Assembly: GCF_017876495.1 (NCBI RefSeq)
Contig: NZ_JAGIOB010000001.1
Span: forward strand, 3,224,001-3,288,000
DNA from: Microlunatus capsulatus
GTDB lineage: Bacteria; Actinomycetota; Actinomycetes; Propionibacteriales; Propionibacteriaceae
DNA: 64,000 bases
Reading direction: 5' to 3'
Made by a program: the position numbers and the translations under genes. Under the pieces are notes generated by a model. That model was not told the origin of the DNA, searched no databases, and saw only the letters and a list, made by a program, of their open reading frames with translations. Position 1 is the stretch's first letter. Every line of letters starts with the position of its first letter. Of the stretch, positions 16,595 through 22,535 are shown one piece after another.

Positions 16595-16667
16595 GGGGCT
16601 TTGGCGCAGTTGGTAGCGCGTCTCGTTCGCAATGAGAAGGTCAGGGGTTCGAATCCCCTAAGCTCCA
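16595..16667 (+). tRNA. tRNA-Ala (CGC anticodon)
   Basis: 73-nt cloverleaf. The acceptor GGGGCTT pairs with AAGCTCC and contains the G3-U70 pair that is the alanine identity element. The anticodon loop TTCGCAA gives CGC, reading GCG. The T arm is AGGGG-TTCGAAT-CCCCT. Discriminator A; CCA is not encoded. TATTGT at 16564-16569 is a plausible -10. Confidence 0.95.
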
Positions 16668-17003
16668 CTCTCCATCACCGCGGTCGACCGGGCAGGACGC
16701 CGGTCCCGCACCCCCGACTCCAGCTCCGGTCCCGCACGGGTGACCTGAGCGGGCCAGGGTCTAGCGCATTTGTCCGCCTTCGGTATTTAATCGTTCTCGA
16801 GGTCGAGCCGCTCCGGCGGCTTCTCCCCAGGGCCTCACGAAGCGGTGAGGGTGGGTTGAGACGTCAGCCCACCCTGACCCCGGAGGCCCGCTAGGGCGCT
16901 GGCGGTCCCCGGAGCCCCTAGACCCCGGCGGGTACAGTGCTCGCGTTGCGCGGACCCCGGCAGCACCAGCCGCCGGCCCGCCCAGGAGGGGAGAGCCCGA
17001 GAC
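16668..17003. other. Intergenic region between tRNA-Ala and zur
   Basis: No gene is evident in these 336 bp. Hairpins are AGCCGC-TCCG-GCGGCT (16806-16821, possible tRNA terminator) and AGGGTGGG/CCCACCCT (16847-16874). An unusually AT-rich patch lies at about 16784-16797. A -10 candidate TACAGT at 16933-16938 would start the zur mRNA with a leader of about 60 nt that contains AGGAGG at 16984-16989. Confidence 0.5.
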
Positions 17004-17450
17004 ATGACGTCGCGCACAGGAGCGGCTCCCGCCCGGCCCGAGCCGGGGGCGACCCGGCAGACCCGGCAGCGCACGGCCGTCGACGAGGTGCTGAGCCACT
17101 CCACCGCCTTCAGCACGGCGGCGCAGATCCACGCGGCGCTGGCCGATCGCGGCGAGCGCGTCGGCATGGCCACCGTCTACCGCACGCTGCAGCGCATGTC
17201 CGAGTCCGGGGCGCTCGACGCCATCCGCACCGACGAGGGCGAGATGGCCTACCGCCGCTGCTCGCGCAGCCACCACCACCACCTCGTCTGCCGTTCCTGC
17301 GGGCTCGCCGTCGAGGTGACCGGGCCCCCGGTGGAGGCCTGGACGGCCCGCGTCGCCGCCGAGCACGGATTCACCGGTGTCAGCCACGACCTGGAGATCT
17401 TCGGCCAGTGCGGGGAGTGCGCGGCTGAGGCCACCTCCGTCCCTCGCTGA
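17004..17450 (+). CDS. zur: Fur-family zinc uptake regulator
   Basis: 148-aa metal-dependent repressor. The winged helix covers about residues 20-85 (TAAQIHAALADRGERVGMATVYRTLQ). The metal and dimer region has the sensor motif HHHHLVCRSCG (about 90-100) and the second structural CxxC near the end (CGECAAE), the four-cysteine zinc site of Fur proteins. Zur identity is inferred from the flanking zinc ABC genes and the Zur-like box between aztA and aztB. In relatives Zur with zinc represses uptake genes. Its last 71 bp overlap the 3' end of convergent aztA. The start ATG 17004 has a GGGGAGAG site upstream. Confidence 0.92.
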   Translation: MTSRTGAAPARPEPGATRQTRQRTAVDEVLSHSTAFSTAAQIHAALADRGERVGMATVYRTLQRMSESGALDAIRTDEGEMAYRRCSRSHHHHLVCRSCGLAVEVTGPPVEAWTARVAAEHGFTGVSHDLEIFGQCGECAAEATSVPR

Positions 17451-18108
17451 CCGGCGTCTCGTCGGCGACCACCCGCCCGTCGGCCAGGTGCACCAGGCGG
17501 TCGGCCCCCGTGAGGACGGCCGGGTCGTGCGAGACGCAGACGACGGCGGCCCCGCGCCCGGCCTCGGCGGCCATCAGCGCCCGGATCCGGTCACCGCTGT
17601 CGGTGTCCAGGCCCGTCGTCGGCTCGTCCAGCAGCAGCAGCTCCGCCCGCGCGGCCAGGCCCTGGGCCAGCAGGGCGCGCTGGCGCTGGCCGCCCGAGAG
17701 GGCGGCGAACGGGCGCCGGGCCAGCGCGGTCATCCCCAGGCGCTCGAGGGCCTCGTCGACCGCGGCGCGGCTCCCGGCGTCCAGTCGGCGCCACGGCCCC
17801 GTCCGGCCCCAGGCCCCGACCGTCACCACGTCCCGGACGGTGAGGGGGAGCCGGTCGGACACGGCCGTGCGCTGCGGCACGAAGCCGACCGCCGGGGTCG
17901 CCTCCCGGGTGCCGGACGAGGGCGCGCGGGTGCCCGCGATGACCTCCAGCAGCGTCGTCTTGCCGGCCCCGTTCGGCCCGGCGATGGCCATCACCTCCCC
18001 GCCGCGCACCTCGAGGTCGACGTGGCAGACGGCCTCGTGCCCCGCGAAGTCGACGTGCACCGCGGACAGGCGGGCGGCCGGGGGAGCGGTGAGGAGGGGC
18101 GACAGCAT
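17380..18108 (-). CDS. aztA: Zinc ABC transporter ATP-binding protein AztA
   Basis: 242-aa ABC ATPase energising zinc import. Walker A GPNGAGKTT is at about residues 43-51, the Q-loop at FVPQRT, the signature LSGGQRQR near 137, Walker B LLLLDEPTTGLD near 156, and the switch histidine in VSHD. The length fits ZnuC/AztA proteins. It is transcribed away from aztB; its ATG 18108 is 6 nt from TAGGAT (18115-18120), suggesting a leaderless mRNA controlled by the shared Zur box. The C-terminal coding end runs through the zur 3' end on the other strand. Confidence 0.92.
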   Translation of the reverse strand: MLSPLLTAPPAARLSAVHVDFAGHEAVCHVDLEVRGGEVMAIAGPNGAGKTTLLEVIAGTRAPSSGTREATPAVGFVPQRTAVSDRLPLTVRDVVTVGAWGRTGPWRRLDAGSRAAVDEALERLGMTALARRPFAALSGGQRQRALLAQGLAARAELLLLDEPTTGLDTDSGDRIRALMAAEAGRGAAVVCVSHDPAVLTGADRLVHLADGRVVADETPVSEGRRWPQPRTPRTGRRSPGRG

Positions 18109-18122
18109 GCCGACATCCTAAC

Positions 18123-18141
18123 TTGATAATCATTCTCATTA
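18123..18141. promoter_or_regulatory. Zur box with overlapping aztB promoter
   Basis: TGATAATCATTCTCA (18124-18138) is a near-palindromic Zur-type site between aztA and aztB. On the plus strand TTGATA (18123-18128) and TACGCT (18146-18151) form a promoter with a 17-bp spacer that lies over the box, with the aztB ATG 8 nt further on. The aztA -10 abuts the other side, so one bound dimer could shut both promoters. Confidence 0.85.
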
Positions 18142-18159: not shown

Positions 18160-19026
18160 ATGACCTCGTGGACCGACGTGCTGCTCGAGCCGTTCGCGCT
18201 CGACTTCCTGCAGCGCGCCCTGCTCGGCGGGAGCCTCGTCGCCGTGCTCTGCGGCGTCGTCGGCACCTGGGTCGTCATCCGCGGGATGGCCTTCCTGGGG
18301 GAGGCGCTGGCCCACGGGATGCTGCCTGGCGTCGCCCTGGCCACCGTCCTCGGGCTGCCGGTGCTGGCCGGCGGCGCGCTGAGCGCCGTCACGATGAGCC
18401 TCGGCATCGCGGCCCTCCAGCGGCGCGGCCGGCTGTCCTACGACACGAGCATCGGCCTGCTGTTCGTCTCGATGCTCGCGCTCGGCGTCATCGTCATCTC
18501 CCACTCCGGCAGCTTCGCCACCGACGCGACGGCGATCCTCTTCGGCGACATCCTCGCCATCGCGCCGGTCGACCTCGTGCTGCTCGCGGCCGCCGCCGCG
18601 CTCGGTCTGCTCGTCGCGGTGCTGGCGCACCGCCCGCTGGTGGCGCTGGCCCTCGACCCGCGGATCGCCGCGGTGCTGGGGCTCGGTCCCCGGGTGGCCC
18701 AGGCCGCGCTCGTCGGGCTCGTCACCCTCGCCGTCGTCGCCTCCTACCAGGCGGTCGGCTCGCTCCTGGTGGTCGGCCTGCTGCTGGCTCCGGCCGTCGC
18801 CGCGGGGCACTGGACCACCCGGATCCCCACCCGGATGCTGCTGGCCGCCGCCGTCGGCGTCGCCGCGGTGCTGCTCGGCCTGCTCGTCTCATGGCACGCC
18901 GCCACCGCGGCGGGCGCCTCCGTCGCCGCGTCCGCGATCGCCCTGGCGGGCGGCTCGTGGGCGCTCCGGGAGGCCGTCGACGCCCTCCGGTCGCGGACCG
19001 CCCCGGCGGCTGTCGCCACGCCCTGA
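18160..19026 (+). CDS. aztB: Zinc ABC transporter permease AztB
   Basis: 288-aa integral membrane protein of the ABC-3 (ZnuB/MntB) family, the channel for zinc import. Eight or so hydrophobic segments are visible, with the family motif region MAFLGEALAHGMLPGVALA at about residues 46-64 and the conserved YQAVGSLLVVGLLLAPAVAA near 196-216. ATG 18160 is 8 nt after a TACGCT box, so it is probably leaderless and Zur-repressed. The binding-protein genes follow on the same strand. Confidence 0.92.
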   Translation: MTSWTDVLLEPFALDFLQRALLGGSLVAVLCGVVGTWVVIRGMAFLGEALAHGMLPGVALATVLGLPVLAGGALSAVTMSLGIAALQRRGRLSYDTSIGLLFVSMLALGVIVISHSGSFATDATAILFGDILAIAPVDLVLLAAAAALGLLVAVLAHRPLVALALDPRIAAVLGLGPRVAQAALVGLVTLAVVASYQAVGSLLVVGLLLAPAVAAGHWTTRIPTRMLLAAAVGVAAVLLGLLVSWHAATAAGASVAASAIALAGGSWALREAVDALRSRTAPAAVATP

Positions 19027-19105: not shown

Positions 19106-20344
19106 GTGCGGTTCCGCATCACCTCGCTCGCCCTGCTGACCAGCCTCACCCTCACCCTCACCGCCTGCGGCGGCGACCCGGCTGCCGCTCCGGCCGCGGA
19201 GGCCCCGATCGGTCCTCCCGTCGGCGACGGCCACGGCGGCGTCGGGGGCGCGGCCGAGGTCACCGAGCCCCAGCTCGGCCTGACGACGGTCGACCGGGCC
19301 GGGACGGTCACCCACCTCGACCTGCTCGACGAGAGCGTCCGCGAGGTCGGCTCCGTCGGCGCCCCGGACGCGGTGACGACCGACGGCCGCTACCTGTTCG
19401 CCGGGACGGCGCAGGGGGTCGAGGTCGTGGACAGCGGCGTGTGGACCTGGGACCACGTCGACCACTTCCACTACTACCGTGCCGAGCCGCGCCTCCTCGG
19501 CGCCGTCGCGGGGCGGGGACCGGCGACGGTCGCCACCACGAACCTCTCGACCTCCGGCGGCACCGGCGTCTTCTTCGCCGGGTCCGGCGAGGCCGTGCTG
19601 CTGGACACCGAGGCGCTGTCGAAGGGCGAGGTCCGGGAGCGCTTCCGCCTGGAGACCGGGCCGCACGCCGGGATGGTCGTGCCCGTCGGCTCCTTCGCGC
19701 TGGTCACCGCGGGGGAGGACGGTGCGGCCACCTCCGTCGTCGGCCACACCGCGGACGGCGAGCCGACCGGCCTGGAGGAGCGGTGCGACGGCGCGTCCGG
19801 CACCCTCACCACGCGGGTCGGGGCGGTCATCGGCTGCGCCGACGGCGCCCTCCTCGCCTCGGTGCAGGACGACGAGCTCGTGGTCGAGCGGATCCCGTAC
19901 CCCGAGGGCACCACCGCGCCCCGGGCGACCGCCTTCGCCAACCGCGAGGGCCGCCCGACCGCCGCCGCGCTCGCCGGGACCGAGGGCATCTGGCTGTTGG
20001 ACACCCGGGAGCGGTCCTGGACCCTGCTGCCGGCCCCCGCCCCCCTGGTGGCGGTGACCGCCGTCGACGACGACGACGAGCACGTGCTGGCCCTGGCCGA
20101 GGACGGCCGCCTGCTGGTGCTGGACGGCGAGGACGGCTCCGTGCTCTCCCGCACCGAGCCGCTCGTGGCGGACTCGCTCGCCGCCGGGCTGACCCCGGCC
20201 CTGATCGCCGACCAGCAGCGCGCCTACCTGAGCGGCCCCGTCGAGCAGCGGCTGCACGAGGTCGACTTCGCCGATGACGCGCGGGTCGCGCGCACCTTCG
20301 AGACCACCACCGAGCCGGCGTTCACCGCCGAGACGGGACGCTGA
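19106..20344 (+). CDS. AztD-like zinc lipoprotein beta-propeller with a His cluster
   Basis: 412-aa secreted lipoprotein: signal peptide with lipobox LTAC (C21), then repeated strands typical of a beta-propeller. It contains WTWDHVDHFHYY with H117, H120 and H122, a likely metal site, and a disulfide-like pair ERCDGA...IGCADG that aligns with CPGVH...FGCEDG of AztD. It therefore looks like a paralogue of the metallochaperone AztD placed between aztB and aztC. GTG 19106 has GGAAGGA 5 nt upstream. In the family AztD delivers zinc to the binding protein; the role of this second propeller is inference. Confidence 0.78.
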   Translation: MRFRITSLALLTSLTLTLTACGGDPAAAPAAEAPIGPPVGDGHGGVGGAAEVTEPQLGLTTVDRAGTVTHLDLLDESVREVGSVGAPDAVTTDGRYLFAGTAQGVEVVDSGVWTWDHVDHFHYYRAEPRLLGAVAGRGPATVATTNLSTSGGTGVFFAGSGEAVLLDTEALSKGEVRERFRLETGPHAGMVVPVGSFALVTAGEDGAATSVVGHTADGEPTGLEERCDGASGTLTTRVGAVIGCADGALLASVQDDELVVERIPYPEGTTAPRATAFANREGRPTAAALAGTEGIWLLDTRERSWTLLPAPAPLVAVTAVDDDDEHVLALAEDGRLLVLDGEDGSVLSRTEPLVADSLAAGLTPALIADQQRAYLSGPVEQRLHEVDFADDARVARTFETTTEPAFTAETGR

Positions 20345-21302: not shown

Positions 21303-22535
21303 ATGCACCCCACCTCCCTCCGCCGCGCGAAGCTCCCCGTGCTCGCCCTGGGCACGGCCCTGGCCCTGGCCGCCTGCTCGTCGAGCACCGGCGCGGCCCC
21401 CGCCGCCGGGCCGAGCAGCAGCGCCGCGAGCGCCAGTACCAGCCCGAGCCCCGCCGCGGCCGGCGCCCGCCTCGCCCTCTCCTACACCGGCGGGATCATG
21501 GTGCTGGACGGCACGACGCTGGAGCCCGTGGCCGAGCTGGAGTCGGAGGAGTTCACCCGGCTCAACCCGGCCGGTGACGGCCGCCACGTCATGGTCACGA
21601 TGAGCAAGGGCTTCCAGGTGCTCGACACCGGGGCCGGGACGGGCGGGCCGGCCGAGCTGACCGACCGCGTCTTCGAGGCGGACACGCCGGGTCACGTCGT
21701 CCGGCACGGGGGCAAGACCGTCCTCTACGCCGACGGCACCAGCGACACGACGATCTTCGACACGGCCGCGCTGGCCACGGCCGAGGGTCTTCCCGAGCGC
21801 GAGACGGTCGAGGGGACCGAGGCCCACCACGGCGTCTCCGTCGTGCTCGAGGACGGCACCTTCCTCACCACCGTCGGGAACGCCGACGGCCGCAACGGCA
21901 TCGAGGTGCGCGACGCGGCGGGGAAGAAGATCGCCGAGAGCGACGACTGCCCCGGCGTGCACGGCGAGGGCACGGCGCAGGGCGAGGCCGTCGTCTTCGG
22001 CTGCGAGGACGGCGCCCTCCTCTACAGCGACGGGACGATCACCAAGCTCGACGCCCCGGACGAGCCGTACGGCCGGATGGGCAACGCCTACGTCAGCGAG
22101 ACCAGCCCGGTCGTCGTCGGCGACTACAAGGACGACGCCGACGCCGAGGGCTACCTGCTCGACCAGGTCACCCTGATCGACACCGCCGAGAAGACCCTCG
22201 AGGTCGTCGACCTGCCCGAGGGCGTGGAGTACACGTTCCGCGACGTCGCCCGGGGCCCGGGGGAGATGGCCTCCATCATCGGCACCGACGGCTCCGTCCA
22301 CGTGCTCGACCCGGAGAACGGTGAGATCACGCAGTCGATCCCGGTGATCGCGGCGTGGGAGGGGCCGGCCGAGTGGCAGGACCCGCACCCGGCCATCGTC
22401 GTCGACGGGGACGTCGCCTACGTGACCGAGCCCGCCGCGAACAAGGTGCACGCCGTCGACCTGACCTCGGGTGAGGTCACCGCGACGGGTGCGCTGGACG
22501 TCACCCCGAACGAGCTGGCGGTCGCCGCCGGCTGA
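21303..22535 (+). CDS. aztD: Zinc metallochaperone AztD
   Basis: 410-aa lipoprotein (lipobox LAAC, C25) with a low-complexity Ser/Ala/Pro linker and then a beta-propeller. Family motifs are TPGHVV (about 128-133), EAHHGVSV (173-180), CPGVHGEG (216-223) paired with VVFGCEDG (C234), and WQDPHPA near 363-369. AztD proteins bind zinc outside the membrane and transfer it to AztC. ATG 21303 is chosen because AAAGAGG lies 7 nt before it; an earlier in-frame ATG at 21264 would lack a proper signal peptide. Last gene of the zinc operon. Confidence 0.88.
   Translation: MHPTSLRRAKLPVLALGTALALAACSSSTGAAPAAGPSSSAASASTSPSPAAAGARLALSYTGGIMVLDGTTLEPVAELESEEFTRLNPAGDGRHVMVTMSKGFQVLDTGAGTGGPAELTDRVFEADTPGHVVRHGGKTVLYADGTSDTTIFDTAALATAEGLPERETVEGTEAHHGVSVVLEDGTFLTTVGNADGRNGIEVRDAAGKKIAESDDCPGVHGEGTAQGEAVVFGCEDGALLYSDGTITKLDAPDEPYGRMGNAYVSETSPVVVGDYKDDADAEGYLLDQVTLIDTAEKTLEVVDLPEGVEYTFRDVARGPGEMASIIGTDGSVHVLDPENGEITQSIPVIAAWEGPAEWQDPHPAIVVDGDVAYVTEPAANKVHAVDLTSGEVTATGALDVTPNELAVAAG

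Follow-up and report, generated by a model that had tools for sequence, protein, structure and literature searches.

The zinc sites of AztD on two proteins

The closest described relatives of the two proteins discussed here are the AztD proteins of Paracoccus denitrificans (PdAztD, 6CK1) and Citrobacter koseri (CkAztD, 6CMK and 6N01), propeller proteins with disulfide cysteines that occur in an aztABC context and carry two zinc sites in one polypeptide. Site 1 is located in the pore and is formed by H124, H167 and H218, and site 2 is composed of H99, H102, D104 and a C-terminal histidine on a beta hairpin (PMC6689063). Work on PdAztD indicated that zinc passes to AztC from site 2 only: mutants retaining only site 2 (Delta-S1) showed full zinc transfer and mutants retaining only site 1 (Delta-S2) showed none (PMC6689063). 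Here we describe a 64-kb window of the Microlunatus capsulatus genome, i.e. the whole stretch of DNA that was analysed, in which the gene order is aztA← →aztB-P1-aztC-aztD and one operon encodes two lipoprotein propellers: P1, located between aztB and aztC, and a downstream protein annotated as AztD.

P1 consists of 412 amino acids, has a GTG start and carries a lipoprotein signal with lipobox LTAC21; the lipobox of the downstream protein is LAAC25. An earlier note on this DNA had described two lipoprotein propellers flanking aztC, which agrees with these lipoboxes and with the position of aztC between the two genes. It also correctly reported H117, H120 and H122 in P1 (within VDSGVWTWDHVDHFHYYRAEPR), the retained cysteine pair (Cys227 and Cys244, corresponding to C214 and C231 of PdAztD) and the absence of the HH and CPGVH motifs, in the place of which P1 has PHAG and CDGAS. 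The histidine cluster is not, as the note claimed, P1's own: HVDHFH aligns ungapped with site 2 of both solved proteins (phmmer, P1 SGVWTWDHVDHFHYY vs PdAztD SGISFHDHGDHRDIE and CkAztD SGIAFHDHGDHADID; E-values in the PDB search 2.9e-5 for PdAztD and 8e-13 for CkAztD) and, judged from this alignment, is the ancestral zinc site 2 of AztD. All three histidines of site 1 are gone, the columns of PdAztD H124, H167 and H218 being occupied by T, A and S. With the NCBIfam AztD model NF038015, which has a curated cut-off of 400 bits, P1 scores 76.6 bits (E 1.4e-21), i.e. it is homologous yet outside the curated family; Pfam offers no model for either propeller. In the AlphaFold2 model of P1 (predicted local distance difference test score, pLDDT, 87) strands 112-116 and 121-125 frame HVDHFH, and the top nine PDB matches are all AztD chains (E 1e-18 to 1e-20), the next match being at 8e-9. 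On the basis of this model the AztD propeller fold is assigned to P1, with 20% identity to solved AztD over the structural alignment.

The downstream protein, which is homologous to P1 with 25% identity, exceeds the NF038015 cut-off and has an intact site 1 (H131, H176 and H220, corresponding to PdAztD H124, H167 and H218). The site-2 hairpin is absent: in the AlphaFold2 model of this protein (pLDDT 83) strand E103-108 is followed by E118-125, with no other strand in between. The best PDB matches of this model are AztD as well, and for both propeller models the E-value gap from AztD chains to the next fold is at least nine orders of magnitude. Thus, the M. capsulatus proteins share with the solved AztDs the fold (best structural match), the disulfide cysteines and the operon context, and hairpin site 2 aligns to P1 and pore site 1 to the downstream protein, but each protein has one site where the solved AztDs carry both. 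In addition, they are lipoproteins, the residue corresponding to D104 is a histidine and the C-terminal histidine is absent. P1 resembles the transfer-competent Delta-S1 mutant of PdAztD and the downstream protein the transfer-dead Delta-S2 mutant; unlike these laboratory mutants they are natural proteins that occur side by side, and site 2 has disappeared by deletion of the hairpin instead of by mutation.

Occurrence and origin of the divided sites

The comparison covered 238 usable stretches, obtained by whole-genome surveys with the AztD profile (at the level of order, phylum, class and one family) and by scanning a collection once with the alignment of P1. Both propellers, nearly full length, are present in 157 of these. 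Site 2 is present in P1 of all 157, a count that is unbiased only for the 77 stretches found by motif-blind profile search because the pattern of the collection scan that yielded the other 80 includes the P1 motif; the motif is not a chance occurrence. In the downstream AztD site 1 is present and site 2 absent in 157 of 157 stretches, and here the absence of the hairpin is unbiased throughout. Of site 1, five P1s retain the parts HHG and C...HG. Some genomes were counted twice (110 P1 rows gave 106 clusters at 95% identity), and counts of conservation do not equal independent events. The two zinc sites are divided complementarily between two proteins, here and in more than 100 related bacteria.

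The gene order is identical in the 80 scanned loci, within the reach of each contig, and in many families P1 has been retained in its position between aztB and aztC. Exceptions are few: in L193 (G1101) P1 and AztD are adjacent and neither aztB nor aztC was recognised in the stretch, and in L229 the operon has P1 and the partner is absent from the stretch read. An apparent site 2 in eleven downstream AztDs, found with a regular expression, was rejected since the matches (HDDHWD) belong to a different loop that follows some 75 residues later. These eleven proteins (L134, L141, L147, L149, L161 and others) have an HxDHWD/H cluster just before CPGIH, about 75 residues past the site-1 residue H124, which is perhaps a replacement metal site. 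The P1s of L038 and L049 are about 50 residues shorter and lack the H167-bearing stretch, possibly by loss of a whole blade. In L031 (G037) aztD and in L030 (G003) P1 are broken into two overlapping frames, by sequencing error or as pseudogenes. Furthermore, a record titled Vibrio cholerae strain 35D (L127) contains an actinobacterial two-propeller azt operon and looks misnamed or contaminated.

Single AztDs served as controls. Stand-alone actinobacterial AztDs (e.g. L005 and L054) and those of single-propeller operons (L150-L153) belong to the same family and have the HGDHxH hairpin; unlike the P1/AztD pair they combine both sites in one protein. Many of the stand-alone genes have a Zur-like box upstream, and none of the stand-alone copies adjoins an aztC. 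Among 76 stand-alone AztDs from stretches without P1, site 2 was found in 72, and both sites are kept in 72; the four without site 2 are L066, L204, L205 and L253, and the genome of the last has P1 and aztC on another contig. Thirteen stand-alone AztDs had appeared hairpin-less by an artefact of mafft --add --keeplength; HGDHxHHY could be read in eleven of them. In other classes of the phylum, six single AztDs have both sites, four of them beside aztC, and in L151 the gene of a two-site AztD lies between aztB and aztC, the position of P1 in M. capsulatus. A third AztD-like subfamily (L063, L064 and L065) is without a lipobox; TGQARR stands where the hairpin motif would be, and the gene is closely preceded by a Zur-like box.

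The phylogeny of both propellers in actinobacteria, proposed in the earlier note as a check, was calculated with the site columns removed. P1 forms a clade (support 100/100) that joins the AztDs of single-propeller operons (97/83), and the downstream copies fall inside the stand-alone AztDs (100/98). These placements indicate that the operon joins two old AztD lineages, which by phylogeny appear to have lost complementary sites, and they reject a recent tandem duplication giving P1 and AztD. Six P1s still bear both sites (G179, G190, G1000, G1130, G1151 and G1165); in their partners, or in the partners of sister species, the hairpin is removed or is shortened and without the site-2 histidines (WTEGSEYYTSTP, WTDGGTHYTADP, WSDGAAHWTADP). 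Site 1 has been lost from P1 in the sister species G1157 and G1238, and well-supported branches of the P1 tree require at least four changes in the site-1 state. Loss of the hairpin may have been one event (downstream group 92/85) and loss of site 1 several.

The conservation of P1 also bears on the question whether it is a decaying AztD copy with no metal role. Its lost site 1, the divergence of distant P1s (32-36% identical to that of M. capsulatus) and the split frame in G003 would fit such decay. However, the site-2 residues, the cysteine pair and the lipobox cysteine are invariant in 19 diverse P1s and the gene has been maintained at its position in many families, which makes decay highly improbable. 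The proposal in the earlier note of a distinct zinc carrier can be kept in the form of a distinct, conserved cell-surface propeller of the azt operon that is probably zinc-binding.

Proposed zinc transfer to AztC

Because Paracoccus AztD with site 2 alone is able to transfer zinc, unlike the protein with site 1 alone, we regard it as probable that AztD is split in these bacteria: P1 would donate zinc to AztC, and the downstream AztD would bind or buffer zinc without direct donation. Upon zinc starvation the operon would be induced from a Zur-controlled promoter; the three histidines of the P1 hairpin would hand zinc to AztC at the cell surface; and pore site 1 of the downstream AztD would bind or buffer zinc, or feed P1. 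By the known mechanism, we infer that the protein annotated as AztD could not be a direct zinc donor to AztC. The suggestion that P1 receives zinc from AztD more likely has the roles reversed, as P1 holds the transfer site that the annotated AztD has lost. Donor pairs in which an accessory extracellular zinc protein supplies a cluster A-I binding protein are known, i.e. ZinT/ZnuA and PhtD/AdcAII; the folds are unrelated.

Several points weigh against P1 as the donor. P1 lacks the C-terminal histidine ligand and has a histidine in the column of PdAztD D104, although the same histidine already occurs in single actinobacterial AztDs. Zinc-binding or transfer data for any actinobacterial AztD or P1 were absent from the papers that were found. 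The loop of AztC ahead of the zinc-ligand histidine has 22 residues and no histidine, as compared to 33 residues in the His loop of PdAztC (DAVEVLDYREGDAEGTPDSHFW vs DGVETMEEPGGGHYHYIDGKAVFHAGAHDPHAW), and all 109 AztC loops examined in these operons are 18-28 amino acids long with at most one histidine, so that a His-rich D-loop is missing; PdAztC requires this loop to accept zinc from AztD (PMC7463823). Regarding the first of these points, an invariant H43 near the N-terminus of P1 (19 aligned sequences) or a conserved C-terminal [E]TGR segment (ETGR) could complete its zinc site. As to the loop, most AztCs of single-propeller actinobacterial operons likewise lack it, from which it follows that docking of AztC must differ in this phylum; a coupling of loop loss to the division of the sites was dropped for the same reason. 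On the minus strand of L153 (G644) an AztC-like protein is encoded whose loop has 153 residues, 28 of them histidines; this genome additionally has a normal AztC adjoining a two-site AztD.

The missing loop could also mean that the two propellers act independently of each other, as buffers or sensors, and that AztC is loaded by P1 only through release of zinc into solution, which would suit the lability of both PdAztD sites to ethylenediaminetetraacetic acid (PMC6689063). We consider this improbable: the hairpin HxDHxHYY is near-invariant among divergent P1s, which suggests a specific use, and the AztCs of single-AztD actinobacterial operons are mostly loop-less as well, so that absence of the loop need not prevent docking.

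A two-protein relay or heterodimer, in which the AztD pore captures zinc and passes it via the P1 hairpin to AztC and the hairpin may plug the pore, is considered unlikely. The two genes do occur together in all 157 paired stretches and are adjacent in L193, with neither aztB nor aztC in that stretch, and in a CkAztD crystal site 2 inserts into the pore of the neighbouring molecule to form a hybrid two-zinc site (PMC6689063). On the other hand, that contact was judged an artefact by its authors, transfer from site 1 to site 2 between Paracoccus AztD molecules was assayed and none was seen (PMC6689063), and the L229 operon has P1 without a partner in the stretch read. The specific arrangement of a physical two-part chaperone on the cell surface, with the P1 hairpin inserted into the pore beside site 1 of the downstream AztD, is likewise quite doubtful; modelled on the hybrid site of the CkAztD crystal, it would either let both proteins share one zinc site or relay zinc in one direction to AztC. 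Of the undescribed relay envisaged in the earlier note, the two-propeller arrangement is indeed undescribed in the AztABCD papers that were found; the relay step itself is at odds with the Paracoccus assay.

The operon, its regulation and its annotation

The genes aztA, aztB and aztC are adjacent and each scores above its curated NCBIfam cut-off, as expected of an AztABCD operon, from which the locus departs in that its AztC lacks the His-rich D-loop (Table 1). The palindrome TGATAATCATTCTCA between aztA and aztB is the sole match within the 64 kb, where shuffling expects 0, and similar Zur-like sites are present in 62 of 108 related operons. It is similar to the consensus TGAAAATGATTTTCA quoted in PMC2823685, and the Corynebacterium glutamicum operon cg0042-0041-0040 is Zur-repressed (PMC2823685); Cg0040 is a possible candidate for a one-propeller case. 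A tRNA-Ala (CGC) gene is found at 16595-16668, a short distance 5' of the Fur-family gene.

Table 1. Features of the azt locus, in window coordinates
Feature	Position	Strand	Basis
Fur-family regulator, probable Zur, beside the zinc operon	17004..17450	+	Pfam FUR 2e-30
aztA, zinc ATP-binding cassette (ABC) ATPase, divergent from aztB	17380..18108	-	NCBIfam AztA 239 bits (cut-off 220)
Zur-box-like palindrome TGATAATCATTCTCA, between aztA and aztB	18124..18138	+	resembles TGAAAATGATTTTCA consensus
aztB, zinc ABC permease	18160..19026	+	NCBIfam AztB 347 bits (cut-off 280)
P1, AztD-family propeller lipoprotein, putative zinc site 2 only	19106..20344	+	lipobox C21, AztD profile/phmmer homology, AlphaFold2 model
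Codons of H117-V-D-H120-F-H122, P1 site-2 hairpin (= PdAztD H99, H102, D104)	19454..19471	+	ungapped alignment to 6ck1 HGDHRD and 6cmk HGDHAD
aztC, substrate-binding lipoprotein, short loop without His-rich D-loop	20347..21267	+	NCBIfam AztC 384 bits (cut-off 350)
Downstream AztD (P0006), propeller lipoprotein, pore site 1 only	21303..22535	+	NCBIfam AztD 472 bits
Place of the absent site-2 hairpin in downstream AztD, DTGAGTGGPAEL	21624..21659	+	MAFFT gap at PdAztD 99-104

In the open-access literature on AztD no second propeller or division of the sites was found, and Actinobacteria are mentioned in one paper. The published AztD family set was defined by E < 1e-20 against PdAztD (PMC6689063), a criterion by which P1, with the E-value given above, would probably be missed. 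In RefSeq, the azt operon of a Streptomyces plasmid has P1 entered as 'hypothetical protein', and the name 'zinc metallochaperone AztD' is given to the downstream copy. For a large actinobacterial group, the label of transfer chaperone appears at present to be attached to the wrong protein. The role of site 1 of AztD, which is highly conserved yet does not transfer zinc, was stated as open by the authors of the structures; since sites 1 and 2 reside on separate proteins in these bacteria, each role would be separable by deletion of a single gene.
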